Part shown: piece by piece, positions 1,570-25,096 of the stretch
How positions within the stretch are numbered: position 1 is the first letter of the stretch
Layout of the letters: each line of letters opens with the position of its first letter
IMG/VR virus record: IMGVR_UViG_3300025873_000011
Span: 1-37,897 of that record
Strand: one strand, 5' to 3'
Length of the DNA: 37,897 bases
From: a virus
Program-made: the position numbers and the translations under genes
Notes under the pieces: model-generated
Databases searched by the model: none
What the model saw: only the letters and a program-made list of their open reading frames with translations
What the model was told of the DNA's origin: nothing

Positions 1570-1866
1570 ATGTCAGAAACATTTAATCTTATTTCAGAAT
1601 TAGGCTTGCCTATAGCTAGCGGTTTAATTATGGGATTTTTTATATTTCTTGTTATGAAACAGCTTATGGATAATCTTGTAGATGAAATTAAACTGGTACA
1701 GGGGATATCAAAAATGCTAATAACTAGAGCATCTATAATGAATAACGATATTATTCGTATAGATACTAGCGTGTCAGCAGCTCTTAATCTTGCTCCAGAT
1801 TTAGAAAGAATAGCGAGAGCAGAAAATTTTGTTGAAGATGGAAAGATAGACGCTCGAAGAGACTAA
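1570..1866 (+). CDS. Small membrane protein, holin-like, first of a similar pair
   Basis: This 98-residue protein has one N-terminal membrane segment (residues about 13-33, GLPIASGLIMGFFIFLVMKQ) followed by a charged amphipathic region with heptad-like spacing. The same plan (LISELGLPI..., membrane helix, coiled coil) appears in the next gene (LVADFGFPV...), suggesting an old duplication. The stop overlaps the next start (TAATG at 1864-1868). BhlA/UviB-type holins have this topology. No motif decides the function. Confidence 0.55.
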   Translation: MSETFNLISELGLPIASGLIMGFFIFLVMKQLMDNLVDEIKLVQGISKMLITRASIMNNDIIRIDTSVSAALNLAPDLERIARAENFVEDGKIDARRD

Positions 1867-2141
1867 TGGATATAGTCCAATTAGTCGCTGACTTTGGTTT
1901 TCCAGTCGTTATGGTAGTCGGTCTTGGGTATTTTGTTTATTTTGTGTGGCAAACTATTACAAAAAAAATAGACCCTGCTGTAGAAAGCATGAAAACAACT
2001 ATTATACGTTTAACCGATCAGCTTAGATTATTAGACCAAGACATGATAAGACTGCAAGAGAAAGTAAATACAGCTTTAAAGTTGAAGGAAAAGAATGAAA
2101 ACAATAAATATAAAAAAGGAAAAGATAAGGAAACCAAATAA
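1866..2141 (+). CDS. Small membrane protein, holin-like, second of a similar pair
   Basis: This 91-residue protein has a membrane segment at residues about 11-31 (FPVVMVVGLGYFVYFVWQT), a coiled-coil stretch to about residue 75, and a very basic Lys-rich end. It matches the plan of the gene before it. Its last 47 bases overlap the csgF-like gene, which starts at 2095 in another frame. The curli module is therefore physically tied to the membrane-protein set. Confidence 0.55.
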   Translation: MDIVQLVADFGFPVVMVVGLGYFVYFVWQTITKKIDPAVESMKTTIIRLTDQLRLLDQDMIRLQEKVNTALKLKEKNENNKYKKGKDKETK

Positions 2142-2652
2142 CAAAGTTCTAGGTTTAGCTGTTATTTTAATTTTTATTTTTGTTGTTTCAGGATATTCAT
2201 ACTCCTTGCTTGCAGATGAATTAGTACATAAGTTTGGTAGTCCTAGTTTCAATGGACAAAATCAATCAGCTCATTACCTCACCATTGATGAACAGGAGAG
2301 AACAAGAGCAGCAGATATTGCCGCAGATATACAGGATGCTTTAGAAGAAGCAGAGCGAGAAGCTGATAATACTGTTCTTGCGAAGTTTTTACGCAATCTG
2401 GAATCAAGGATTTACTCAACTTTGGCAAAGGACATATCCGAATCTTTATTTAACTACAGTGGAATACCCACAAGAGATAACCCAATAGCGGGGGAAATAA
2501 ACCTAGAAGGCAACATATTAAAATGGATCAATGATGGAACTACGATTACCTTAATCATTGAAGAATGGTTTGATGGCGTACTTATTTCCACGACAGAAAT
2601 TGTCATTCCAGTAGGAAGTTTTGGTGGCTGTTGGGTAGATTGTGACGGATGA
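2095..2652 (+). CDS. csgF: CsgF-like curli assembly protein
   Basis: This 185-residue protein has a basic N-terminus and a hydrophobic export signal at about residues 19-40, with likely cleavage near SLLADE. The mature start, HKFGSPSFNGQNQ, matches the N-terminal CsgF signature (E. coli FQFRNPNFGGNP), the part that inserts into the CsgG pore. In E. coli, CsgF sits outside the outer membrane and helps nucleate curlin; the family is about 138 residues, so this one is longer. The C-terminal half (INDGTTITLIIEEWFDGVLI) also fits the beta-rich CsgF tail. An AAGGAAAAG site precedes ATG 2095, and the stop overlaps the csgG start (ATGA). Confidence 0.75.
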   Translation: MKTINIKKEKIRKPNNKVLGLAVILIFIFVVSGYSYSLLADELVHKFGSPSFNGQNQSAHYLTIDEQERTRAADIAADIQDALEEAEREADNTVLAKFLRNLESRIYSTLAKDISESLFNYSGIPTRDNPIAGEINLEGNILKWINDGTTITLIIEEWFDGVLISTTEIVIPVGSFGGCWVDCDG

Positions 2653-3467
2653 AATGGTTAATTGTTATAGCGCTTCTTGTAATTAATGGTTGTGCTTCAA
2701 TAGGATTACAACAAACAAACTGCGCTTCCTTTGTTATTTGTCCAGAAGGTCCACAGATAGTACCCACTGCAGCAACCCAACTGCTAAACCTTCCGCCACC
2801 CAATACCAAAGCTGTGGTGGCTGTTTATGATTTCCCTGATTTAACAGGGCAAAGAAAGTCCAACGACAACATAGCCAGTTTCAGTACCGCAGTAACTCAA
2901 GGCGGGGTGGACATTCTAATAGAAGCGTTGAGGGATGCAGGCAGGGGTAATTGGTTTGCGGTGGTTGAAAGGTCAGGCTTGGATAGTTTATCAAGAGAGC
3001 GACAACTTATTATCAACACCCGTAAAACCTATGCAGGAGAAGGTGAGAATGTTCTTAAACCACTGCTCTATGCAGGTTTGATTCTTGAAGGCGGCATCGT
3101 TTCCTATGACACAAACTTGAGGACAGGTGGGAATGGCGCAAGATATCTAGGGATCGGATTTAAAAATCAGTACCGAGAAGATAGGGTGACTGTAGTTCTC
3201 AGGGCAATATTAGTACAGACAGGGGAAGTATTGCTCACTGTTACCTCAACCAAAGCAATCTTGTCTACAGGCAAGGGAACGGATTTATTTCGTTTCTATG
3301 AGTCAGGCACTCAACTTGGAGAGTTTGAAAGTGGCAGCACAATCAACGAGCCTATAGGTCTTGCTGTACGAACTGCAATAGAAGCGGCAGTGTATGGTTT
3401 GGTTATTCAGGGCTTGGAAAAAGAGGTCTGGGATTTTAATTATGCTACACTGAAGCAGGAGAAATAA
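2649..3467 (+). CDS. csgG: CsgG-like curli secretion pore lipoprotein
   Basis: This 272-residue protein, close to the 277 of E. coli CsgG, has a lipoprotein signal with a lipobox ending in Cys15 (LVINGC). CsgG nonamers form the ungated outer-membrane channel that exports curlin. Family signatures run in order: LPPPNTKAVVAVYDF (48-62), TGQRK (66-70), ASFSTAVTQGG (76-86), where F78 fits the constriction Phe, WFAVVERSGLDSL (102-114), LILEGGIVSYDTN (144-156), GGNGARYLGIG (160-170), TGEVLLTV (191-198) and NEPIGLAVRTAIEAAV (233-248). The Asn next to the constriction Phe in E. coli is Ser here. Local GC is visibly higher than in flanking phage genes. Confidence 0.93.
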   Translation: MKWLIVIALLVINGCASIGLQQTNCASFVICPEGPQIVPTAATQLLNLPPPNTKAVVAVYDFPDLTGQRKSNDNIASFSTAVTQGGVDILIEALRDAGRGNWFAVVERSGLDSLSRERQLIINTRKTYAGEGENVLKPLLYAGLILEGGIVSYDTNLRTGGNGARYLGIGFKNQYREDRVTVVLRAILVQTGEVLLTVTSTKAILSTGKGTDLFRFYESGTQLGEFESGSTINEPIGLAVRTAIEAAVYGLVIQGLEKEVWDFNYATLKQEK

Positions 3468-3468
3468 T

Positions 3469-4146
3469 ATGAAGATACTTCTAAGCATAATTATTTTGTT
3501 TGTCTCAGCAGTTGCTTTCGCAGGCAATAACGATATATATATCACTCAAACTGGCACAGGTCTAACCTTGACGATTGACCAGATTGGAGCAACCAATAAG
3601 GTGGGAACTTCACAAGCAAGAGTTATACTCAGTGGTACGAGCATGGCGGTTGACCTAGATCAGATTGGCGATACCAACACAATCGCTGCTAGCATCCTAC
3701 AAGGAAATTCTTCCAGTTGGACTTACAGTGCAACAGGAGACAGCAATGTGGGAACATTTGCGGTGGGAGCCACTGGCGATGTGGCATCTACAGACTTTGA
3801 TTTTGCAGCAGTCGGGGATTCCAATGTGCTTACCTTTACCCAAGGCGACTCGGCAACAGCAACAGCAGGTAATCAGGACTTCGCTATTACAGGCACATCC
3901 AATGATATAAACGTCAAGTGTAATGTCATAGGCTGTATTAATAGCTGGACTGTTTCTGGAAACTCCAATGATATAGATACATTGCAGTCAGGCAGACAAG
4001 ATCACGATATTACAGTTGCTCTTACTGGAAGCTCAAATGATGTAGACATAGATCAGACAGACACAGCAAATACCAATGTTGCCAATATAATATCAACCAC
4101 TTCAAGTGCTACCATCAACGTAGATCAATGCACAAGTGGCTGTTAA
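3469..4146 (+). CDS. Secreted curlin-repeat-like protein 1 (candidate amyloid subunit)
   Basis: This 225-residue protein has a clear signal peptide (MKILLSIIILFVSAVAFA, then GNND). The mature part is rich in Ser, Thr, Asp, Asn, Gly and Gln and repeats a beta-strand/turn unit such as LTIDQIGATN, VDLDQIGDTN, SATGDSN, AAVGDSN, AITGTSN, VSGNSN and LTGSSN. This resembles the curlin unit (strand, Q-x-G-x-x-N turn, strand) of CsgA and CsgB. It lies 1 base after csgG behind an AGGAG site, so it is the likely cargo of that pore. Unlike E. coli CsgA it has close Cys pairs (KCNVIGC, QCTSGC). Whether it polymerises is not known. Confidence 0.8.
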   Translation: MKILLSIIILFVSAVAFAGNNDIYITQTGTGLTLTIDQIGATNKVGTSQARVILSGTSMAVDLDQIGDTNTIAASILQGNSSSWTYSATGDSNVGTFAVGATGDVASTDFDFAAVGDSNVLTFTQGDSATATAGNQDFAITGTSNDINVKCNVIGCINSWTVSGNSNDIDTLQSGRQDHDITVALTGSSNDVDIDQTDTANTNVANIISTTSSATINVDQCTSGC

Positions 4147-5210
4147 TTCTACTGGTAGGAACACTTAACGCAGCAGAAATTGGGGAAATCTCTGAGCTGA
4201 GAGGCATAGGTGAGATAACACGCAAGGATGCCAGTACAGCGCTTCTAGCTGAATTGGCTTCTGATATATTTTCCTTTGATGATGTCAGGACTGGGAATGG
4301 TCGTATGGCAATACAGTTCTTGGATTCTTCCATATTAAAACTAACCGAACACTCCAAAGTCGTCATAGACAATTACATCTATGATCCTGACCCAAGCAAA
4401 ACCAAACTAGCATTGAACATGGCATCAGGAACTGCTCGTTTTATCACAGGTAAACTGGGGGGGATAAATAAGAACAATATTCGGATAAGGACACCAAGCG
4501 CCAATATTGCGATAAGAGGCACTGACTTCACCACAACTGTTGATGAGTTGGGGAGAAGCCTGATTATCCTACTGCCCAATCCAGATGGAACTTCATCAGG
4601 GGAGATAGCAGTAGAAACTTGGTCAGGAACGGAAATACTTAACAAGCCTTTTCAAGCCACGATGGTTTCTACGTTTGAGTCACGACCCACTAAAGCGGTT
4701 GTCTTGGGTAATATAACGCTAGGTCTAATAGACAATATGCTTATCATCAACAAGCCACCTGCGATTGTGCAGGCTGTAGAGGAACAAAGCGGAGAGATCA
4801 AGACGGATTTGGATAAGGATTTTTTTGAAGAAGCTCCTGATCTGGATAAGGATTTCTTGGAAGTTGAGGAAGAAATAAGCCGCTTGGATATAGATTTGTT
4901 ATCCTTTGATTTCCTTGTGGATTTATTGGCAATAATGGCAGCAGGGGCAAAGAAGAAAACAACATCAGGGGGAGAGTTAGAAGGTGTAGAATTGATGGGG
5001 ATTATTCCAAGATATGATCCAACTTACCAAACATACACCTTTGTAGATGGGGCTTATCTATATTTAGTACATCAGGGAACAAATACCTTTGATATTGCTC
5101 TGGATAAATACGCAGCCGCTTATTTGAGTATAGATACAGCAGGAATCATAATGGAGATAGAGGTTAATGGTGCAGGCGATAACACTATTATTATTTTTCA
5201 GTCTCCTTAG
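4128..5210 (+). CDS. FecR-domain secreted protein
   Basis: This 360-residue protein has an N-terminal signal peptide (MHKWLLILLVGTLNAA). A FecR-type domain covers about residues 17-175, with the GEISELRGIGEITR opening, DDVRTGNGRMAIQFLDSSILKL, and IRTPSANIAIRGTDF, the usual TP-x-A-x-x-x-RGTxF signature. A DLDKDF(F/L)E repeat, an acidic linker and a hydrophobic stretch follow (about 225-275). FecR domains in the periplasm transmit surface signals, and stand-alone forms often sit beside CHASE2 cyclases, as here. It overlaps curlin-like gene 1 by 19 bases and curlin-like gene 2 by 44, so it is embedded in the operon. Confidence 0.85.
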   Translation: MHKWLLILLVGTLNAAEIGEISELRGIGEITRKDASTALLAELASDIFSFDDVRTGNGRMAIQFLDSSILKLTEHSKVVIDNYIYDPDPSKTKLALNMASGTARFITGKLGGINKNNIRIRTPSANIAIRGTDFTTTVDELGRSLIILLPNPDGTSSGEIAVETWSGTEILNKPFQATMVSTFESRPTKAVVLGNITLGLIDNMLIINKPPAIVQAVEEQSGEIKTDLDKDFFEEAPDLDKDFLEVEEEISRLDIDLLSFDFLVDLLAIMAAGAKKKTTSGGELEGVELMGIIPRYDPTYQTYTFVDGAYLYLVHQGTNTFDIALDKYAAAYLSIDTAGIIMEIEVNGAGDNTIIIFQSP

Positions 5211-5970
5211 TTTCAATGTGTTGGCAGGCAATAACCTGATAACCATTCAAACCAAAGGCACTGGATCAACAATCACGATCAAGCAGGTAGGTAGTAGCAA
5301 TACCACAGGCATTTATTGTGGTTTGGGAAGTTTTGACAGTTCATTGGTCAATACCCATAACTGCGATAATGCCACCATTACTGCCACTGTAACAGGGATT
5401 TCAAATATCGTTTACTCGCAATCGGTATGGTCAAACCACGATGGACAAAAATGGATAACCACAGTAGTTGGCAATGATAATTATGCAGTTATTGATATGG
5501 ATGAAGATGATAATACTTCAACCATTATTCAAGACGGAAATGATAACGATGCTTGGATTTTAGGTTCTGGAGACAATAGTGTTTATAAGATAGAGCAGTT
5601 AGGGGATGACTATTACGCCAAGATTTACGCTTTTTCAGATAATTCTGATGTTTGGATCACTCAAGAGGGTACAGGGGATCATAATGCTTATGTTCTTAAC
5701 TATCCAGGTGGAGATAATAACTCTACTAGATTAATTCAAAAGGGATCGGGAGTAAAAGATGCAGATATCTACTTTTACAGTGGTGCTGATGATAATGACG
5801 TTAATTTAACGCAACAAGGAAACGGCTCACATACTGCATATATGAGATTTTATACTACAGATTACGATGTAGCTGTAATTCAAAAAGGTTCATCTAATCA
5901 ATCTTATTCAGCTCAATTTAATTGTACTGGAGGAGGTTGCGATAAAACTATTTCAATAACTCAGCAATGA
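5167..5970 (+). CDS. Secreted curlin-repeat-like protein 2 (candidate amyloid subunit)
   Basis: This 267-residue protein has a signal peptide (MVQAITLLLFFSLLSFNVLA, then GNN). The mature part repeats a strand with I-x-Q-x-G turns: ITIKQVGSSN, STIIQDGNDN, YKIEQLGDDY, VWITQEGTGDHN, TRLIQKGSG, VNLTQQGNGSHTAY and AVIQKGSSNQSY, ending in SITQQ. The Q-x-G-x-x-N pattern is clearer than in the first curlin-like protein. It is acidic and rich in Asp, Asn and Tyr, with Cys near both ends (IYCGLG, NCTGGGC). A CsgA/CsgB-like division of labour is possible, but I cannot say which protein is nucleator. Its stop overlaps the cyclase start (ATGA). Confidence 0.8.
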   Translation: MVQAITLLLFFSLLSFNVLAGNNLITIQTKGTGSTITIKQVGSSNTTGIYCGLGSFDSSLVNTHNCDNATITATVTGISNIVYSQSVWSNHDGQKWITTVVGNDNYAVIDMDEDDNTSTIIQDGNDNDAWILGSGDNSVYKIEQLGDDYYAKIYAFSDNSDVWITQEGTGDHNAYVLNYPGGDNNSTRLIQKGSGVKDADIYFYSGADDNDVNLTQQGNGSHTAYMRFYTTDYDVAVIQKGSSNQSYSAQFNCTGGGCDKTISITQQ

Positions 5971-7739
5971 ACAAATGGTTAATTGGGGTGCTGATTACAG
6001 GTACTTTAATGGTGCCTTTATTATTTAGCTGGAATGTTTTAGAAATAATTAAGCTCAAAACTTTTGATGCTTTGATTCCAGAGAAAGAACCATCAGGTTA
6101 TTTTTCTATCCTTAATATAACTGAAGATGATATTGCACGCGAAGGAGGCTATCCCTTACCTAGACAGCGATTAGCGGAAATACAGGTTGATTTATTAAAC
6201 AAGGGAGCGATTGGAGTTGGCTGGGTTATGGCTTTCCCACAACCTGATCGGTTCGGAGGAGACTCCATATTTGCAGAAACACTAGCCTATGCTCCTACTG
6301 TCTTGGCGATGTTTGAAAATAATAGCGGAGATTATCCCTCAACTACAGGCACTGTCATCATGGGAGAAGATCGCGGAGGAATTGATGCAGAAGGAGTTAT
6401 TCAAAACATTGATATCCTTAAAAAAAGCGCTAATCAAGGTATTGCTGTAGCTAGAACAGAGGTTGATTCTTTAGTTAGAAGATTACCCTTATTATTAAGA
6501 ACTCCTGATGGGTGGGTTTCCGCCTTTGGAACGGAGGTCTTAAAGGTATTGGCGGGTGCAGACACTTACCTTATAAAAACGAACGACAATGGTATAGAAC
6601 AGATAAGAGTTAAAGGGTTGCCACCAGTCTCTACTGATTCACTAGGAAGAAAATGGATTAGTTGGGTTGATACACCGCAAACAGATTTACAGGAAATGCA
6701 GGTTAAAGATAAGTTTGTCTTTGTAGGCTTTACCGCTAAAGGAATAATGCCACAACTGTCTGTGCCTAATGGTCAACTTTTAGAACCACACAAGATACAA
6801 GCAGCGCTGGCGGAAAGCATATTAATTGAGGACAGTCCATACGTTCCTGATTGGGGTCTAGCAGCAGAGGTTTTAGCTTTTGGTGTTACAGTTTTTTTAG
6901 CATGGTTTCTGATAAATATTTTTGGTATAACTTTAGGGATATCTTTTAGTGGTCTATTATTTTTACTAACAGCAGGGAGTGGGTATTACTTAATACAACA
7001 AGGACTTCTTATAGATGTTACTTGGACCTTAATATCTCAATTTATTACAGCGTCTACAGCATTTTATCTACGCTTTAGAGAACAATATAAGCTAAGACAG
7101 CAGATCAAAGCTCAATTTGGGAAATACCTTGATCCAAGAATGGTTAAGAAATTACAGGATAATCCTGAGTTGTGTCAGGTAAATGGTAAAAGAGTTGATT
7201 GTTCTATTATATTTACTGACCTTAGAGGATTTACTAGCTTATCTGAGTCAGTAGAGCCTGAGATGGTTACTTATATAATGAATAATGTTTTAGATGTGCA
7301 AGTAAAGGCAGCTAATAAATATTTTGGATGCACAGATAAATTCATTGGGGATGCAGGAATGTTCCATTGGAATACTATAATTCCACAAGAAGATCATCAT
7401 ACGCTAGCTTTAAAAGCTGCAAAAGAAATAGAAAATAATATAGACCAGTTAAATATTAAATTTAAAGAAGAAGGAATCCCTGAAATAGCTATAGGTATAG
7501 GGGTTAATTCAGGAATTTGTATAGCAGGTAACTTTGGAGCCACCGATAGATTTGCTTTTAGTTTAATCGGAGACCCTTGTAATGTGGCTGCTAGACTAGA
7601 ATCAAGCACGAAGATCGCAGGAGTTGGGGTGTTGATAGGCGAAGAAACTGCAAAAAATACGGATTTTGAGCTACAATCATTAGAACCTATAGAGGTTAAA
7701 GGCAAGGCTAAACCATTACAAGTTTATACATGGGCATAA
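5967..7739 (+). CDS. CHASE2-domain class III adenylate cyclase
   Basis: This 590-residue membrane protein has one N-terminal helix (about 5-24), a periplasmic CHASE2 sensor (about 27-285), three membrane helices (about 292-365), a short linker with FGKYLDPRMVKKL, and a catalytic domain (about 405-590). The class III site looks complete: metal Asp D418 (FTDLRGFT) and D462 (KFIGDAG), adenine-selecting K458, and transition-state N539 and R543 (NVAAR). The second substrate position is S532 instead of Asp, as in class IIIb enzymes, which use Thr or Ser. It should make cAMP; cCMP or cUMP cannot be excluded. As last gene of the curli operon, it probably reports periplasmic or surface state, with FecR, to the cytoplasm. 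Confidence 0.9.
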   Translation: MNKWLIGVLITGTLMVPLLFSWNVLEIIKLKTFDALIPEKEPSGYFSILNITEDDIAREGGYPLPRQRLAEIQVDLLNKGAIGVGWVMAFPQPDRFGGDSIFAETLAYAPTVLAMFENNSGDYPSTTGTVIMGEDRGGIDAEGVIQNIDILKKSANQGIAVARTEVDSLVRRLPLLLRTPDGWVSAFGTEVLKVLAGADTYLIKTNDNGIEQIRVKGLPPVSTDSLGRKWISWVDTPQTDLQEMQVKDKFVFVGFTAKGIMPQLSVPNGQLLEPHKIQAALAESILIEDSPYVPDWGLAAEVLAFGVTVFLAWFLINIFGITLGISFSGLLFLLTAGSGYYLIQQGLLIDVTWTLISQFITASTAFYLRFREQYKLRQQIKAQFGKYLDPRMVKKLQDNPELCQVNGKRVDCSIIFTDLRGFTSLSESVEPEMVTYIMNNVLDVQVKAANKYFGCTDKFIGDAGMFHWNTIIPQEDHHTLALKAAKEIENNIDQLNIKFKEEGIPEIAIGIGVNSGICIAGNFGATDRFAFSLIGDPCNVAARLESSTKIAGVGVLIGEETAKNTDFELQSLEPIEVKGKAKPLQVYTWA

Positions 7740-7759: not shown

Positions 7760-8161
7760 ATGAAACTTTCCTTAATCTTGGGTGGCTTATTGCTAATGAC
7801 AATAGCAGGCTCAGCTTGGTATATAGATAGACTCCAAGATAATATAGGTACGTTAAAAGGCAATCAACTGATCTTGGAAACGAAGATTCAAGAACAAAAC
7901 GCAGCAATAGAAACTGCTTTAGCTAATCAGAAAAAGGCACAAACTCTTATGGCTTCTTTAGAAAAGGATAAACAAGAAGCGATGCGTAATGTTAATAAGT
8001 TAAGAAAAACATTTGCCAAACATGACTTAGATGAGTTGACTTTAGCGAAACCAGAGTTAATGCAAAGCAAAATAAATAAAGCATCTAAGCGAGTCTTAGA
8101 AAATTTAGAAAAATTAACCGACCCAAACCAGTTTGATGAAGAAGTTAGCGATAATATTTAG
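7760..8161 (+). CDS. Rz-like inner-membrane spanin (i-spanin)
   Basis: This 133-residue protein has an N-terminal membrane anchor (residues about 3-21) followed by a long periplasmic coiled coil (about 25-85). The end, LTLAKPELMQSKINKASKRVLENLEKLTD, resembles Rz-like proteins of marine phages. The topology is that of an i-spanin, which links to an outer-membrane lipoprotein and fuses the membranes at lysis. The next gene starts inside it, in another frame, and encodes a lipoprotein; this overlapping arrangement is typical of spanin pairs. Confidence 0.7.
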   Translation: MKLSLILGGLLLMTIAGSAWYIDRLQDNIGTLKGNQLILETKIQEQNAAIETALANQKKAQTLMASLEKDKQEAMRNVNKLRKTFAKHDLDELTLAKPELMQSKINKASKRVLENLEKLTDPNQFDEEVSDNI

Positions 8162-8528
8162 TTTAGTTCTAGTTGCTTCAGGCTGTTCTCTGATGGGAGA
8201 AAGGGTTAAGCCAGTCTCTGTTACAACAATCGCTAAACAACAACCCATGTATCATCCGCCTTTACCTATGGAAGTACAAATGGACCCTGTTGATTGGGAA
8301 ATACTAACACCAGATAGTTTGCAGTTATATTTAGACAATCTGGAAAAAGGGGAAGCACCAAGAAGGGCGTTTTATTCATTGTCTAGTAAAGAGTATGAAC
8401 ACTTGAGTATGGACATGGCAGATATTACTAGATACATCACAGAGATACTGGGAATAATTAGATTTTATAGGGATTACGACAAAGAAGAAGAACCTGAAGA
8501 TAATAGAATAAATAAAGAGAAAAAATAA
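8133..8528 (+). CDS. Lipoprotein, candidate outer-membrane spanin (o-spanin)
   Basis: This 131-residue protein has a lipoprotein signal (MMKKLAIIFSLVLVASGC, Cys18). The mature part has a Pro-rich start (YHPPLPMEVQMDPVDWEILTP) and a helical section with a YEHLSMDMADITRYITEI motif that recurs in marine phages beside Rz-like proteins. It overlaps the i-spanin gene by 29 bases. It is longer than classic Rz1, so the o-spanin role is inferred from topology and position. The C-terminus is strongly charged. Confidence 0.65.
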   Translation: MMKKLAIIFSLVLVASGCSLMGERVKPVSVTTIAKQQPMYHPPLPMEVQMDPVDWEILTPDSLQLYLDNLEKGEAPRRAFYSLSSKEYEHLSMDMADITRYITEILGIIRFYRDYDKEEEPEDNRINKEKK

Positions 8529-8556: not shown

Positions 8557-9015
8557 ATGAGCAATAGAGATAGGTTTATATCGGCAGAAGGAATGGCATT
8601 AATAAAAAAGTTTGAAGGATGTAAATTAGACGCTTATTTAGACGCTGTAAATGTACCCACGATTGCTTACGGAAGAACCAAGAATGTAAAAATGGGAGAT
8701 AGTTGTACTCAAGAACAAGCTGAAGCATGGGTTGAAGAAGAGATGCAAGAATATGAAGGTTATATCAACAATATGGTTGAAGTTGAATTATCTCAATTTC
8801 AGTTTGATGCTCTTGTGGCTTGGGTTTATAACTTGGGACCAACTAATTTAAAAAACTCTACTTTATTAAAAGTATTAAACGAAGGTAAATATAGCGGAGT
8901 TCCAGCTCAAATAAAAAGATGGAACAAAGCGGGAGGTAAAGTTTTGGACGGATTAACAAGAAGAAGGGAGGCAGAGGCTTTACTTTTTCAAGATAAAGAA
9001 TGGTACGAGGTTTAA
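8557..9015 (+). CDS. Endolysin, GH24 (T4-type) lysozyme
   Basis: This 152-residue muramidase cuts the N-acetylmuramic acid to N-acetylglucosamine bond of peptidoglycan. The catalytic triad spacing E-8x-D-5x-T is exact: E20 (KKFEGC), D29 (YLDAVN) and T35 (PTIAYG). LSQFQFDALVAWVYNLG and RRREAEALLF are further family features. There is no signal peptide or signal-arrest anchor, so it needs a holin to reach the wall; small membrane proteins at 393-2141 are candidates. An AAGAAGGA site precedes ATG 8557. It follows the spanin-like pair and ends 1 base before the first tail gene. Confidence 0.9.
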   Translation: MSNRDRFISAEGMALIKKFEGCKLDAYLDAVNVPTIAYGRTKNVKMGDSCTQEQAEAWVEEEMQEYEGYINNMVEVELSQFQFDALVAWVYNLGPTNLKNSTLLKVLNEGKYSGVPAQIKRWNKAGGKVLDGLTRRREAEALLFQDKEWYEV

Positions 9016-17914: not shown

Positions 17915-20900
17915 ATGTCCATATATGAAACTAAAGATGGCAGTAAATATAATATACCGACTGATCTTGCAGAAAGAGATTATTTAGCTAAAGCAATATT
18001 AGCCATACATGGCGAAGATATAAACCAAACGACAACACTAGGACAGGCTAAAGAATTTGCTAAGGCAATTCCAAGAGAAGCTGTAGCAGGCTTTCAAAGG
18101 GTTCCTATAGGTCTTTCCCAATTATTTGATATGGGTAATGATAGCCCAATGACTCAACACTTCTTAAAACAACAAGAAGAGTGGAGAACGGAGGGTGTCT
18201 TTGCTGGCGATCCAGCCTATCAAGATTTATACAGCACTAAAATTGGAGGTGGCTTAGGCTCCTTTATTCCCTTTTTAGGTGCAGGTATAGCTGGCAGAGC
18301 TTTAGCTACTAGGGGAGTGGGTGCAAATCTGCCTAGATTTTTAAAACCACAATGGACTGTGCCTTACACTTTTGCTGGACCTTCTGGTATCAGTGAACAA
18401 AGTGAGTTTTTACAGCAAGCTAGAGATGAAGGTAAAGAAGTAGGACCAATAGCAGAAATTTTTGCAGAGCTTGGTGGAGCTGCAATAGGAGCTACGGAAC
18501 TACTGCCAGTAGAAAGACTGCTAAAAAGAGTGCCAAAAAATGCGTTGAATTATCCTGAAGTAAGAAGGATGCTTCGATCTGCGATACAACAAGCTGGAAT
18601 AGAAGCTGGTCAAGAAACCTTTGCTGGTGTATCACAAAGACTCTTAGCGCGTGGCTTATACAGTGATGATTTGCCTTTATTTGAAAGTGTTTGGGATGAC
18701 TTTACAGTAGGCGGTGGTGTTGGCTTTATAGCTGATTTGGTTGTCAACTCTGCATCAAGAAGAAGCAGAGGCAGAAATTATTTAAAAGATGCTGAACAGC
18801 GTGCAAGAGATAACAGAGTTAATCTTAATGCTGACAGCAAATTTGAACGAGGGGTTGCTCAAGGAACTCTTCAAGAAGTACAAGATCAACCTGTTGTAAC
18901 TAAACCAGAAATTCCAATTCCTGCTCTTGTAGGCGCTGTTCCTAGCTTAGAGGTTATACAAAATCCTGATGGTAAGTTTTCTGTAGTTGATCTTAAGGCA
19001 ACAGAAAGCCCAGTAATACAAACATTTGAAGGCGAAGCCGATGCTCTTATATTTAAAAATAAAGAGCAAACCAATTTTTTAAGAAAGCAACTTAAGGTAG
19101 ATATAGACAATGCTACATACGCTTTAGGTATGCCCGAAAGCTCCTCTGCTTTACAAGCAGGAAGCACAATACTTGATCCAAATATTTCTCAAATTAACTT
19201 ACAGAGCTTAATAGAATTTGATTCCAAGCTTTCAGAAGATCAAAAGAAAAAATTTGCTGCTGAAAGAAAACAAGCTGGATGGTTTGGAAAGAATGTTCCA
19301 AGCGAAATGATCGAGCGTAAAAGGGCTTTTCTTAAAGAAACCAGCAACTATCTTAATAGCAAAGGATTAGACTTAAAAGCCAGTTATTCAATGGCAGAAG
19401 TAAAGAAAGCTTTATCTGTTAAAAATTACAACGAATTATTAACTGATTGGGCTGCTGAGGTTTCTCAAAAATCAGAACAAGCTGGCGAACCTTCAATAAC
19501 TGCTGATAAAGAAAAGCCTAATGTAAATCTAAAATACATTAAGGATATAGCAGCCTCCAAAAATATTGATATAGACTTCAAAGACCCTGCGGTTAGATAC
19601 GCAGCCCTTCAGTGGACTGGTACCGCCAATATGTCAAAAACGAGGAATCGTGGCGTAAAAGAATTATTCTTAGCACGACTTCACTCTCTCCCTAAGTTCA
19701 ATACCCGAACTAAATTCCCAGACTTTAGACCTAGAAAATATACGGCACAAGATGTTGCCAATTTTGTTGCGTCTATGGGAAGTAGAAATGTTCAATTTAC
19801 TGTTGATGATCTTCTAAAGGTTGGGGTTACAGCTAAAGACAAAACTGCTACCGAGCAATTTATTAATGATTTGGTTACTAGCGGAAGAGCAGAGAAGATA
19901 AAGAACACCAATCAATATCAGATTAGAAAGAACCATGAGTTTGATATTGCCAGAAGAGCAGAAGGTTTTGATGAGACTCCAGCAGAGTTTGGCGATAGAC
20001 TTAGAAGAGAAGGCAAGCTTCCAGAGGAAACGATAGCGCAATTAGTTGAGGCAGAAACCACAAGACAAAGGAGAGTATTACCTCCAGATGAAGTTGAGCC
20101 TAAAACAATTAAATTTAATGAGGCTATAGAAGAAGGCAGAACAAATGTATTTGCCAGAGAGCTTAGAAAAATATTAGAGGAAAGAGGGTTAGGAGAAACA
20201 GGCGTTGTTGTAAGCAATGATATTTTATCTACTTCAGCGTTAGCTAGAACCCCACAAGGAGATATTGTTTTTGATCCAAGAGGATTAAGACAAACAGCAA
20301 CAGAAGGTGCTGTCGAGGGAGAATATGATAAGAATACTGACATTATATTTCTTTCATTAAATGCCATTAATCCAGATGGAAATGCTACACCAGAACAAAT
20401 AAGAGAAAGATTACATAAGGTTTTAGACCACGAAATGATACACGCCTTGCGTGAAAAGGATTTGATAACTGAAAAGGAATATCAATATCTAAGAAAAGAA
20501 GTTAAGCGAAAGAAGGTACCTCAAGTATTTGATCCAAGCTTTAAAGGTCGTTCATTCTATCAACGTGCAAAAGCCATGAACGAAGGCAGACCTGAATTGG
20601 TGGGTCGAAACGAACAGTTTAAAGAAGAGCTTTATGTAGAAGAAGCTATTGCAGAAATGTATAGAGCTAGAAATTTTAAGCCTGACATAGCACCTAAGGC
20701 AGAAGGTATCTTCAATAAGATAGTTGAGTTCTTTAGGTCTATGGGTCAAGCAATGCGTACTTCTGGATTTAAAAGATCATCAGAAGTATTTTCTGAAATT
20801 GAACAAGGAAGAGTTGGCGCAAGAGCAAGAGGGGAAATAAGAACCTTACGAGAGCTGGATAGGCTAGCGCCTGAAGCTGTTGATGCTCCTGTTATACAGG

Positions 20901-23900
20901 AGTTTGAGGAAGGTGAAGCGCCTGTTAATGAGCCTACTGATATAGTTTCTCTAGGCGAAAGCGGAGCGATTGGTACTCCTGTTTCTACATTTGAAGATGT
21001 AGAAGCTGATACTGACCCTATAACTGGAGTTGTTCTAACTCCTAGTGGTTTAGGTCGTGCTGGAAGCTCAATATTTGATTTTAGAAAACAAACCGAAGAA
21101 CAATTACAAGCTCAAAGAGCAGCTTTTGTAAAAGAGTTTGGTTATGGGCATGTAAAGACTGAAGATGTTTTAACATGGCTATCTAAGAACGCACCAAGTA
21201 AAGACTATAGGGTTATCGCTGACAGGCTTTTAACGCAAGTTAAAAGATTAGGGCGAATGAAAAAAATAGATTTTCAGTTTCGCATTATTAAAAAAGGCAC
21301 TGATCGCTTACCAATTCCAGGTCATACAGGAAGAAACCTTAATTGGCATGGTGTTTCTTATCCTCCGTTTTCTTATGAAGGAGGGTTTAGGCAACAAGTT
21401 TATATTTCTGACAGAGGAAAGGGTCACTTTAGAGGGAGGGGAGTTCCAGATAGTAATGTTGATGGCGTTAATCTTGAAACAATATTGCATGAGTTAGTGC
21501 ATCAAACAACACAAGCTGCAACTTATGATTTCCTTGCTGATAAAAAGACAAAAGAGAATGTTCTTGAGCTGGATAAAATAAGAAAACGAGTAAGAGAAGA
21601 AATTAATGCTAAAAAAAGAGCTGGTGAGGATATAGACTTTTATGTTCAATACGGCACTAAAAACGTACAAGAATTATTAGCAGTAGGGTTTACTGATAGA
21701 AAGTTTCAAGAGTTTATGGAGTCAATACCATATTCTCCTAGAGGAAAGAAATCTTTATGGGATAAATTTACTGAAACTTTAAGGAAGCTTCTTAATATTC
21801 CTGCCAAGCAAGGCACTGCATTCTCAGAGTTTTTATTGCAAGCTGGCAGAATTACTAACCTTAGCCAGAAACAAATTAGACCTCTTCTTGGTCGTGCCGA
21901 TATGTTAGATAGAGGTCCAGACTATACCCCAAGAAGATTTACTCCTGAGCAACAACAAGTCTTAGACCAGTTAAGCGCTTTAGAGGAAAAAATCATTCCG
22001 CTTGAATCAGAAAAGAATCAAGAGGGATCGTTTATGAGTCCTGCTAATCTAAGTAAATTAAATATTAGATTAGATAAACTTTACGCAGAGAAAGATTCAC
22101 TACAACAACAGTTTGATAGATTGCCTGCAGCAGAGCCTCAACAGGTACCTTTGTTCTCAAGAGGAACAAGATTTGTAGATGATAGGAACACTAATGAGAA
22201 TATACAACTAACAGAAGCCACAGAGAAGGCTGTAGAGATCGTTAAGCGCACACCTAGAGGGGAAGTGCCATATTACAACGTAAACGCCTCTGACGTGGCT
22301 TTAAAGGCGGCTATCGACTTTAATGAAGATGCCACTGCACAAGCGCCTGATGACATACCTAATTTCTCCAGAGCGCCATTACCAGGATTTGTTCAAGATG
22401 TTGCAGAGCGAATCGGTCAACCCAAGTATGAGGTAAATAAATCTTCAGGGGCAAGACTAATAGATGTAGCCAGCAATCCTGTCCCTAATGTAAGGAAAGC
22501 ATTTAAAGGGTTTAGATCAGCCATCGTTGATAAGTTAGACCCAATGGTTAAAGCGACAATGCGGTTGTCTGAAGAGAACGAACAAACAAGGCTACTAAAC
22601 AATACAGCAGATACGTCTGCAATAGCCGCACTTAGGCTAGCTGACAGAGCAAGAGGAATCTTTCAGGGACTTCTTATGCGTGGTTATGCCAGCGATACAA
22701 TTGACGGAGTAAGCTCATTAACTAATGTTAAACCACATGAAATAAGTACACGCTACAACCCATTTATAGACGGAGATACTGGGTATGGTGGGTTAATGCA
22801 AATAACAGCGCCTCTTTTTGCTGATCCAAGCGTTGATTTGGAAGGAGTGTGGGCGGTTTACGGAAAACTTAAGAGACAAAAGGGTTTTAATGAACAGGGT
22901 AAAGAGATAGCCTCACCGATTACCTCACAAGATTTAGAAGCCATTGCAGAAATAGAAGCTCGTTTTCCTGTAGTAGTGGAGGTTTATAACAATTACCAAT
23001 CATGGAATAACGAGCTAATTAAATTTGCTGAATCCAAAGGTTTATTAAGTTCTGAACAGTCTGAATTATGGAGAGAACATTCCAGTTATTATCCTTTTTA
23101 TAGGGACATGGTGGATGAAACAGGAGACATTACTGCGCCAAAAATAGGTGGTGGTATGCTTCCAAATAACCCACTTAATATAGTAATGAAGGGTTCTGAA
23201 AAAGAAATAAATGTTCCCCCATTAGAAGCTATAGCAAGAAACTCATTATCAATCTTAACTGCTGCCATGAAAAATGATGGTGCGGCTAAACTAATGAGAG
23301 ACTTTGTTGACAACGGAATGGCTCAAAAGGTTTCGGCTAAAGAAGCCTCAGGAAAAATCTCAATACCAGTATTTGAAGATGGTAGAAAAGAATTTTATTT
23401 GGTTGATGATTTAGAAGTCTATGAAGCCATGAGAGGTATTGGCGGTGTAGGTACAGACTTCATTACAAAAATCTTACAATTCCCTGCAAGAATATTAAGA
23501 GATACAGTAACCCGTGACCCAGGCTTTATCATGGTCAACTTACTCAGAGATACTCTCTCTAGTGCTATTACGGCTGGTAATGTTGGCTTGGGAGAAGGCA
23601 ATTTCACACCTATTGTAGATACATTTAAAGGCATGGTAAGCGATATGACAGACTTAGAAAAGTTTGGCATCATCGGTGGTTATGACTTTGCCAATGATGA
23701 AGGCGGTGTTGTTGCTTTAATGGCTAGAGCCAGAAGAAAAGAAGGACTAACACCTGATAACGGAATAACAGCTCAAGATGCCTTCTATAAGATGTGGGAT
23801 GGCTTAGGTGGTTTAACAACTAAGTCAGACGGAGCAACTCGTTTAGGTGTTTATAAAGCGGTTTATAACAACTTAAAGGAACGAGGTTATACAGAAGCAC

Positions 23901-25096
23901 AAGCACAATCAGAAGCCGCCTATCAAGCGCTAGAGATTATAAACTTTGGACGCAGAGGCAACTCAGTTCTATTCAGATATTTAACTTCGGCTGTTCCTTT
24001 TCTTAATGCAAGAATACAAGGTCTTGATGTCTTGTGGCGTTCAATGTCAGGGCAATATTCTGCAATAGAAAAACAACGAGAAGGGGAAACCCTAAAGGAC
24101 GTTCAAAAAAGAATAACAAGAGGCTTCATCACTAGAGGCAGTATTATGTTTGCAATTACTGCTCTTTATTATGCAATGGTTTCAGATACCGATGAATACA
24201 AAGAAGTGAAGCGAGAGGTTAGGGATGACAACTGGCTAATACCAACTCCATTTGGTTACACAATTAAGATACCCATTCCTTTTGAAGTCGGCATGTTGTT
24301 TAAAGCGTTACCCGAAAGGTTTATAGATGAGTTCTTAGGCAGACAAGTAGAAAAAGACCCATTAAAATCTACATTTAGACAACTCGGAACATCAGCCAAT
24401 ATACCCTTCATAGGCGGAGACATAGGAATACAAGCGGTTAAGCCTTTGTTTGAGGCTGTTACTAATAGAAATTCATGGACTAACACAGAGATAGTTCCGT
24501 ATTACAAACAAAAGGAAATGCCAGCCTATCAAGCTCGACAGTCAACCAATGAAGTAGTTAGGCTTATAGGAGAGGCGCTTAACATATCGCCCATGAAGTT
24601 AGAACATTTGATACAAGGCTATACAGGGACGCTAGGAGGCTATTTACTAGACTTAATCGATGTAACTGCCAGAAGAGTTACAGGCACCCCTCTCATGCCA
24701 TTTAACATCAACAGTATTCCCGTAGTTAAAAGATTGCTTTTAGACAACGACAAAGGCGGAGGACTGCAACAATCCTTCTATGAATTAAGAGAGGAAGTTA
24801 TGGGAGCTACGGGTACCATTAACGATCTACGGAAACAGGGCAGAATGGATGAATTAGCCACTTACAGGGAGCATCATAAAGGCTTGTTTAATGTGAAGGG
24901 TCAGGTTAATGCCATCAATAGATTTATGCAAAACTGGAGAAGGCAAAGAGACAGGCTTTTAAGAAGAACAGATTTATCCCCTATGGTCAAAGCAGATATG
25001 CTTAAAGAGTTAGAAGCAAGGAGAGATAAGAGACTAGCTATTGTTCCTGCGCTCAGACAAAAAGCTGACGTTCCAAGAGTTTCTTTGGGTAACTAA
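17915..25096 (+). CDS. Giant internal virion / ejection protein with metallopeptidase-like motifs
   Basis: This 2393-residue protein is by far the largest here. An AAGGAAAAG site precedes ATG 17915. It closes the structural operon, as giant ejected inner-core proteins do in podoviruses. Two zinc-metallopeptidase motifs are visible: HEMIH (839-843), preceded by a beta-rich NTDIIFLSLNAIN region, and HELVH (1192-1196), preceded by QVYISDRG. Around residues 1840-2110 the sequence (RILRDTVTRDP, then NLLRDTLSSA, then a hydrophobic stretch) resembles the large polyvalent protein domain LPD38. Most of the rest is helical. Likely jobs are crossing the envelope and processing proteins during DNA entry. 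The last 63 bases overlap a convergent gene. Confidence 0.7.
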   Translation: MSIYETKDGSKYNIPTDLAERDYLAKAILAIHGEDINQTTTLGQAKEFAKAIPREAVAGFQRVPIGLSQLFDMGNDSPMTQHFLKQQEEWRTEGVFAGDPAYQDLYSTKIGGGLGSFIPFLGAGIAGRALATRGVGANLPRFLKPQWTVPYTFAGPSGISEQSEFLQQARDEGKEVGPIAEIFAELGGAAIGATELLPVERLLKRVPKNALNYPEVRRMLRSAIQQAGIEAGQETFAGVSQRLLARGLYSDDLPLFESVWDDFTVGGGVGFIADLVVNSASRRSRGRNYLKDAEQRARDNRVNLNADSKFERGVAQGTLQEVQDQPVVTKPEIPIPALVGAVPSLEVIQNPDGKFSVVDLKATESPVIQTFEGEADALIFKNKEQTNFLRKQLKVDIDNATYALGMPESSSALQAGSTILDPNISQINLQSLIEFDSKLSEDQKKKFAAERKQAGWFGKNVPSEMIERKRAFLKETSNYLNSKGLDLKASYSMAEVKKALSVKNYNELLTDWAAEVSQKSEQAGEPSITADKEKPNVNLKYIKDIAASKNIDIDFKDPAVRYAALQWTGTANMSKTRNRGVKELFLARLHSLPKFNTRTKFPDFRPRKYTAQDVANFVASMGSRNVQFTVDDLLKVGVTAKDKTATEQFINDLVTSGRAEKIKNTNQYQIRKNHEFDIARRAEGFDETPAEFGDRLRREGKLPEETIAQLVEAETTRQRRVLPPDEVEPKTIKFNEAIEEGRTNVFARELRKILEERGLGETGVVVSNDILSTSALARTPQGDIVFDPRGLRQTATEGAVEGEYDKNTDIIFLSLNAINPDGNATPEQIRERLHKVLDHEMIHALREKDLITEKEYQYLRKEVKRKKVPQVFDPSFKGRSFYQRAKAMNEGRPELVGRNEQFKEELYVEEAIAEMYRARNFKPDIAPKAEGIFNKIVEFFRSMGQAMRTSGFKRSSEVFSEIEQGRVGARARGEIRTLRELDRLAPEAVDAPVIQEFEEGEAPVNEPTDIVSLGESGAIGTPVSTFEDVEADTDPITGVVLTPSGLGRAGSSIFDFRKQTEEQLQAQRAAFVKEFGYGHVKTEDVLTWLSKNAPSKDYRVIADRLLTQVKRLGRMKKIDFQFRIIKKGTDRLPIPGHTGRNLNWHGVSYPPFSYEGGFRQQVYISDRGKGHFRGRGVPDSNVDGVNLETILHELVHQTTQAATYDFLADKKTKENVLELDKIRKRVREEINAKKRAGEDIDFYVQYGTKNVQELLAVGFTDRKFQEFMESIPYSPRGKKSLWDKFTETLRKLLNIPAKQGTAFSEFLLQAGRITNLSQKQIRPLLGRADMLDRGPDYTPRRFTPEQQQVLDQLSALEEKIIPLESEKNQEGSFMSPANLSKLNIRLDKLYAEKDSLQQQFDRLPAAEPQQVPLFSRGTRFVDDRNTNENIQLTEATEKAVEIVKRTPRGEVPYYNVNASDVALKAAIDFNEDATAQAPDDIPNFSRAPLPGFVQDVAERIGQPKYEVNKSSGARLIDVASNPVPNVRKAFKGFRSAIVDKLDPMVKATMRLSEENEQTRLLNNTADTSAIAALRLADRARGIFQGLLMRGYASDTIDGVSSLTNVKPHEISTRYNPFIDGDTGYGGLMQITAPLFADPSVDLEGVWAVYGKLKRQKGFNEQGKEIASPITSQDLEAIAEIEARFPVVVEVYNNYQSWNNELIKFAESKGLLSSEQSELWREHSSYYPFYRDMVDETGDITAPKIGGGMLPNNPLNIVMKGSEKEINVPPLEAIARNSLSILTAAMKNDGAAKLMRDFVDNGMAQKVSAKEASGKISIPVFEDGRKEFYLVDDLEVYEAMRGIGGVGTDFITKILQFPARILRDTVTRDPGFIMVNLLRDTLSSAITAGNVGLGEGNFTPIVDTFKGMVSDMTDLEKFGIIGGYDFANDEGGVVALMARARRKEGLTPDNGITAQDAFYKMWDGLGGLTTKSDGATRLGVYKAVYNNLKERGYTEAQAQSEAAYQALEIINFGRRGNSVLFRYLTSAVPFLNARIQGLDVLWRSMSGQYSAIEKQREGETLKDVQKRITRGFITRGSIMFAITALYYAMVSDTDEYKEVKREVRDDNWLIPTPFGYTIKIPIPFEVGMLFKALPERFIDEFLGRQVEKDPLKSTFRQLGTSANIPFIGGDIGIQAVKPLFEAVTNRNSWTNTEIVPYYKQKEMPAYQARQSTNEVVRLIGEALNISPMKLEHLIQGYTGTLGGYLLDLIDVTARRVTGTPLMPFNINSIPVVKRLLLDNDKGGGLQQSFYELREEVMGATGTINDLRKQGRMDELATYREHHKGLFNVKGQVNAINRFMQNWRRQRDRLLRRTDLSPMVKADMLKELEARRDKRLAIVPALRQKADVPRVSLGN

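Follow-up and report, generated by a model that had tools for sequence, protein, structure and literature searches.

A curli (type VIII secretion) operon that includes genes for FecR, a second curlin and an adenylate cyclase has been described for HTVC023P-type podoviruses and for Pelagibacter myophages (PMC9599517). The shared gene order of this pelagiphage module is small protein(s), CsgF, CsgG, CsgA/B, FecR, a second CsgA/B, and adenylate cyclase, and its transfer between phage families was argued in the same work. The CsgGF part has been discussed elsewhere (PMC7029224, PMC9004378). Ocean phages commonly carry the module; the roles printed for it, namely iron regulation, curli expression driven by cyclic AMP (cAMP), and timing of lysis, remain proposals. 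Here, we analyzed IMG/VR virus record IMGVR_UViG_3300025873_000011, a virus contig of 37,897 bases (the window, i.e. the whole stretch of DNA analyzed). It carries a complete copy of the operon at positions 1570–7739, encoding two small membrane proteins, CsgF, CsgG, a curlin, a FecR-domain protein, a second curlin, and a CHASE2 cyclase; all of the genes lie on the plus strand, and their ends overlap. The window operon belongs to the published module, and the operon itself is not new. The present analysis adds a model in which FecR is an adaptor, an exchange of sensor and catalytic parts in the cyclase with the active site kept, doubt about the published labels 'histidine kinase' and 'iron regulator', and the puzzle of a missing receptor: selection on the cyclase is strong in phages whose hosts appear to have almost no known means of sensing cAMP.

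The anatomy of the operon yields a specific circuit, which runs from curlin export through the FecR tail and CHASE2 to the cyclase. In our preferred reading, which is tentative and held with slightly less than even confidence, the phage carries a curli operon with its own envelope sensor feeding the cyclase; secretion, the protein contacts, activation, and cAMP as the product are what we infer. The infected cell would build the CsgG/CsgF pore in the outer membrane and export two curlin-type proteins. Through its curlin-like C-terminal end, the soluble periplasmic FecR would sense either the pore or the fibre protein, in transit or still unexported, and its FecR domain would act on the periplasmic CHASE2 domain. 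The cyclase would then convert ATP to cAMP in the cytoplasm, turning the state of fibre export into an internal signal.

The predicted proteins agree with type VIII secretion; the CsgG pore, the CsgF chaperone, and the curlin-repeat subunits are all present. The matches to CsgG and CsgF are both above the Pfam cut-off; the second curlin gene exceeds the curated PF07012 cut-off, and the first falls slightly below it. A sequence-only reading of this locus had recognized a FecR gene, flanking curlin-like genes, and a CHASE2 cyclase at 4128–7739, all of which were recovered with Pfam. It had missed CsgF and CsgG, whose presence completes the curli operon. Its suggestion that fibre export or surface state is sensed stands for the export half, which is plausible with CsgG and CsgF present; the sensing itself we infer.

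FecR and the cyclase were found in all 37 CsgG-anchored viral contigs that offer more than 5.5 kb of downstream sequence, a scan that reaches close relatives only and in which double counting is possible only for a contig fetched twice. This is the co-occurrence in related phages on which the sequence-only reading had staked its proposal. The gene order is nearly fixed, although the second curlin is missing in 24 of 87 distinct full modules. The ratios of nonsynonymous to synonymous substitution rates (dN/dS) are 0.035–0.07 for FecR, 0.044–0.067 for the cyclase, and 0.04–0.11 for the curlins, which are thus also conserved. The operon arrangement and the selection on FecR and the cyclase are far beyond chance. 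The module is also present in the cultured phages HTVC008M and Melnitz, in the same gene order as in the window; both are T4-like myophages, and their cyclases are 28–31% identical. As a separate observation, FecR is flanked on either side by annotated curlin-repeat proteins in the GenBank record of Melnitz, whereas csgA/csgB were stated to be lacking in this phage (PMC9004378).

Behind its signal peptide, the FecR protein has a FecR domain, which is joined by an acidic linker to a tail rich in beta structure. The fold of its FecR domain matches PupR and the FecR-type domain of 4m0h. The tail ends in a curlin-type hxhxQ motif, which was found within the last 12 residues of all 124 distinct phage FecRs (background, 2.6% per sequence window), although these proteins are mutually related and the counts are hence non-independent. 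The same end occurs in 171 of 199 curlins (background, 15.7%). Elsewhere it was seen in 0/132 cyclases, 1/105 CsgG, 0/101 CsgF, and 0/9 bacterial cyclase-linked FecRs.

Evolutionary distances were compared across 63 modules, and the outcome holds after thinning to 37. The distances of the FecR tail track those of CsgG, CsgF, and the curlins (r 0.89–0.93 in the 63 modules). Against CsgG, values of 0.93–0.95 were obtained for the tail and lower ones (0.81–0.84) for the FecR domain. When the CsgG/CsgF signal was removed, the best partner of CHASE2 was the FecR domain (partial r 0.37–0.48; tail, 0.15–0.33), and hardly any correlation was left between the FecR domain and the catalytic domain (0.02–0.20). 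On the DNA, the FecR domain is farther from the cyclase gene than the tail, yet it is the better partner of CHASE2. The hxhxQ end and the co-variation of the tail with CsgG and of the FecR domain with CHASE2 together suggest that FecR is an adaptor between fibre export and the cyclase.

Several points weigh against this circuit. A shared history, together with sampling guided by similarity to the window, can also give rise to such distance correlations, and they are no proof of contact. FecR similarity is not always in step with CHASE2, as seen in L130 (FecR domain, 89%; CHASE2, 40%). The tail was rejected as a bona fide curlin domain, because its hhalign comparison with the curlin profile (E 0.011–0.04, probability <4%) beats shuffled controls but is not significant. 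Therefore, its link to curlins rests on one short motif and the co-variation. The AlphaFold model of FecR is poor, with a predicted local distance difference test score (pLDDT) of 54, and is usable for the FecR fold only. Pfam detected no CsgE among the module genes, and no clumping of Melnitz-infected cells was observed (PMC9004378).

The cyclase has the predicted CHASE2 layout. In the AlphaFold2 model (mean pLDDT 89.8), residues 2–19 form a first helix and residues 297–384 contain long hydrophobic helices, which places a periplasmic CHASE2 domain between the first transmembrane helix and a multi-helix membrane bundle. The nearest solved structures to the catalytic domain are CyaB, Cya2, and CyaC. 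The catalytic fold (TM-score 0.85 to CyaB) and the active-site residues are as in CyaB of P. aeruginosa (3r5g) and CyaC of S. platensis (1wc1); unlike these, the phage enzyme sits in the membrane and carries a CHASE2 sensor. The sequence-only reading had proposed a complete class III site of class IIIb type with K458 and S532 as the substrate-selecting pair. Its numbering is correct, and N539 and R543 complete the set with D418 and D462. S532 aligns with a Thr of CyaB, and K458 occupies the position of a Glu in the guanylyl cyclase Cya2 (2w01). The K/S pair points to ATP, rather than CTP or UTP, as the predicted substrate.

The D-K-D-S/T-N-R set is present in 130 of 132 distinct complete viral cyclases. 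The exceptions are Melnitz, in which Asp and Ser stand in place of S532 and N539, respectively, and the cyclase of L132 (9809–11590), in which the substrate Lys is replaced by Asn and the first metal motif is altered (VDIRNYT); the latter enzyme is possibly inactive or changed in substrate. In two relatives (L097 and L098), the CHASE2 domain is 95% identical to that of the window cyclase and the catalytic domain 35%, and the active site is still intact. Judging from these alignments, recombination near the membrane/cytoplasm boundary exchanged the catalytic domains behind the sensor. The site kept across viral cyclases, the exchange of catalytic domains without loss of that site, and the low dN/dS argue strongly for an active enzyme, predicted to be a class IIIb adenylate cyclase.

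The 80 nearest bacterial cyclases are 23–33% identical to the phage enzyme and are mostly alphaproteobacterial. The proposal that FecR and CHASE2 cyclases are often neighbors in bacteria agrees with a FecR gene within 1.5 kb of the cyclase in 15 of 56 eligible loci. These FecRs are sometimes fused to cadherin or immunoglobulin adhesin repeats or to tetratricopeptide repeats, and their FecR domain comes without an anti-sigma domain. In the BiofilmReg operon, a LysM-FecR protein adjoins a CHASE2 histidine kinase (PMC5192318). The CHASE2 cyclases of Sinorhizobium meliloti receive an outside signal via the outer-membrane barrel NsrA, with output through the CRP-family regulator Clr (PMC13001267), and this route is, by analogy, a functional precedent for the phage system. 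In the bacterial pairs, with which CyaD1, CyaD2, and CyaK of S. meliloti are grouped, a periplasmic FecR protein stands beside a CHASE2 receptor, as in the phage; unlike the phage FecR, the bacterial FecRs beside cyclases do not have the curlin-type end. A bacterial origin of the joined curli, FecR, and cyclase operon was rejected, because no such locus was found near the 80 cyclases or in 190 alphaproteobacterial genomes. No CsgG, CsgF, or curlin was present within 10 kb of the former, and no FecR or cyclase was present within about 10 kb of the three loci in the latter that have both CsgG and CsgF; the two profiles were verified to detect real bacterial CsgG and CsgF.

The host side poses a difficulty for the output of the cyclase. 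The SAR11-441R and SAR11-152R probe sites are present in full-length 16S loci of two genomes of the class, and the genomes examined here as the SAR11 family are those of the family of these two. The cyclic-nucleotide-binding domain (PF00027) is lacking in 58 of 60 SAR11-family genomes, for which individual completeness was not reported and in which other receptor classes were not searched. One of the two positive genomes encodes an FNR-like protein that combines a Cys cluster with a Crp-type helix-turn-helix; in the other (G406), the domain is in two frames of about 1000 residues, and a phage contig is present in the same genome. Only 2 of the 60 genomes contain a class III cyclase, and both cases are copies of the phage operon; therefore, no class III cyclase native to SAR11 is seen in this sample. 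One copy lies on the 23-kb contig 1 of G406 (L339), on which the window order is kept through the endolysin and a terminase domain is present. The other (L340, contig 11 of G442) is a whole module inside a SAR11-family bin. These contigs may tie window-like phages to SAR11 as a lead to the host, or they may reflect mis-binning.

In a fuller version of the circuit, which is doubtful, the phage would build a complete trans-envelope relay of its own in a SAR11 host that lacks both a class III cyclase and a canonical cAMP receptor, and the messenger would then have to act on a non-CRP target or outside signalling. Reprogramming of host genes by raised cAMP through a CRP-type host regulator, as put forward in the sequence-only reading and similarly in PMC9599517, is unlikely. 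In its favor, the class IIIb site is intact, and the window G+C content (39%) exceeds the value of about 30% in the sampled SAR11 contigs. Moreover, in the control family, the Methylophilaceae of the Methylotenera genome (assumed here to be the family that hosts Melnitz), the binding domain is present in all 60 genomes, including small ones of 1.3 Mb. However, HTVC008M was grown on SAR11 and has the cyclase regardless, and none of the four phage records checked encodes a cAMP receptor with this domain. With the domain in only 2 of the 60 SAR11-family genomes, the cAMP-CRP route is without a known receptor in such hosts. The earlier signalling idea is thus reasonable as regards the envelope but lacks support as regards host metabolism.

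Timing of lysis by the CsgGF pore and the small membrane proteins has also been proposed (PMC9004378), in which case FecR and the cyclase would serve this timing. In the window and in many relatives, the module lies directly 5' of Rz, Rz1, and the endolysin, and the two small proteins weakly resemble YvrJ-type single-transmembrane proteins. However, the conserved curlins would not be needed by a pore alone, and the HTVC008M module, with its small proteins, adjoins an ssDNA-binding gene and baseplate genes, with no annotated lysis gene within about 9 kb; this explanation is distinctly unlikely. The sequence-only reading had also raised interference with nucleotide-based defences; it is very improbable that the cyclic nucleotide serves as a decoy or flooding product against CBASS- or Pycsar-like systems. 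The catalytic domain is recognized by PADLOC PycC models (best E=3.5e-26), but these match bacterial CHASE2 control cyclases equally well (8.7e-27 to 1.5e-31), and the substrate pair speaks against CTP or UTP; membership in Pycsar was rejected because the match is generic and no cyclic-nucleotide effector lies beside the cyclase. The reading in which FecR regulates the curli genes in response to iron, as ferric citrate (PMC9599517), as opposed to the periplasmic adaptor proposed here, has in its favor the FecR domain, whose fold resembles the periplasmic domains of anti-sigma FecR/PupR proteins, but is hardly credible, because the protein starts with a signal peptide, Pfam shows a FecR domain only and no cytoplasmic anti-sigma domain, as in the bacterial relatives beside CHASE2 cyclases, and no sigma-factor family was found among the window open reading frames scanned. 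Membership in FecI/FecR cell-surface signalling was rejected likewise, as neither the anti-sigma domain nor a partner extracytoplasmic function sigma factor was found.

The coordinates of the operon and of its neighbors are listed below.

Table 1. Genes and active-site or motif codons of the curli operon and adjacent lysis genes in the window.
Feature	Position	Strand	Evidence
Type A membrane protein, 98 residues, one N-terminal transmembrane helix and coiled coil	1570..1866	+	phrog_18771 E=2.2e-21
Type B membrane protein, 91 residues, paralogue of type A	1866..2141	+	phrog_18771 E=6e-28
CsgF, curli extracellular chaperone	2095..2652	+	PF10614 E=1e-5
CsgG, outer-membrane lipoprotein pore	2649..3467	+	PF03783 E=9.3e-53; PRK15184 CsgG E=3e-45; lipobox NGC
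Curlin-repeat protein 1 (CsgA/B-like), signal peptide	3469..4146	+	PF07012 E=1.1e-3, 2 stretches; CsgB model 2e-4
Periplasmic FecR-domain protein, 360 residues, C-terminal beta tail with curlin-type end motif	4128..5210	+	PF04773 E=5.7e-12; phrog_37870 full-length
I354-x-I356-x-Q358 codons, curlin-type hxhxQ end of FecR	5187..5201	+	
Curlin-repeat protein 2 (CsgA-like), signal peptide	5167..5970	+	PF07012 E=2.5e-9; CsgA model 5.9e-13
CHASE2-transmembrane-class IIIb adenylate cyclase (predicted), 590 residues	5967..7739	+	PF05226 E=3.1e-22; PF00211 E=2.8e-15
D418 codon, metal-binding Asp 1	7218..7220	+	
K458 (substrate) to D462 (metal-binding Asp 2) codons	7338..7352	+	
S532 (substrate), N539 and R543 (transition state) codons	7560..7595	+	
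Rz-like inner-membrane spanin, neighbor	7760..8161	+	phrog_739 E=1.5e-10
Rz1-like spanin lipoprotein, neighbor	8133..8528	+	phrog_812 E=1.8e-13
Endolysin, neighbor	8557..9015	+	phrog_7 E=2.3e-55

Tandem single-transmembrane coiled-coil proteins of 91–98 residues ahead of CsgF also occur in T4-like phages; in HTVC008M and Melnitz they travel with the module, to which they may belong. Their resemblance to YvrJ or holin-type proteins is weak (YvrJ in 7 of 33 family members). The published 'histidine kinase' label probably refers to these small proteins, and it was rejected, because Pfam detected no kinase domain in the 33 members; it is the label, rather than membership in the module, that is put in question. 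In another relative (L088, 6505–8016), the CsgG frame has 504 residues and a separate first curlin is missing, which suggests a CsgG-curlin fusion, a lost stop codon, or a sequence error.

At its 3' end, the operon passes from FecR, the second curlin, and the cyclase directly to the spanins and endolysin. Rfam and tRNA scans of the window gave nothing, and promoter and terminator scans gave no more sites than shuffled sequences. The remaining genes are of phage type and encode a stabilization protein, a primase/helicase, an exonuclease, an ssDNA-annealing protein, RusA, and endonuclease VII. A protein of 2393 residues (17915–25096) matches only the function-unknown phage families phrog_9854 and phrog_18222. 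The stabilization protein is 33–36% identical to its counterparts in phage DSL-LC04, Roseobacter phage CRP-901, phage 023Pt_psg01, and HTVC023P; therefore, the window phage is of podovirus type and a distant relative of the HTVC023P group.

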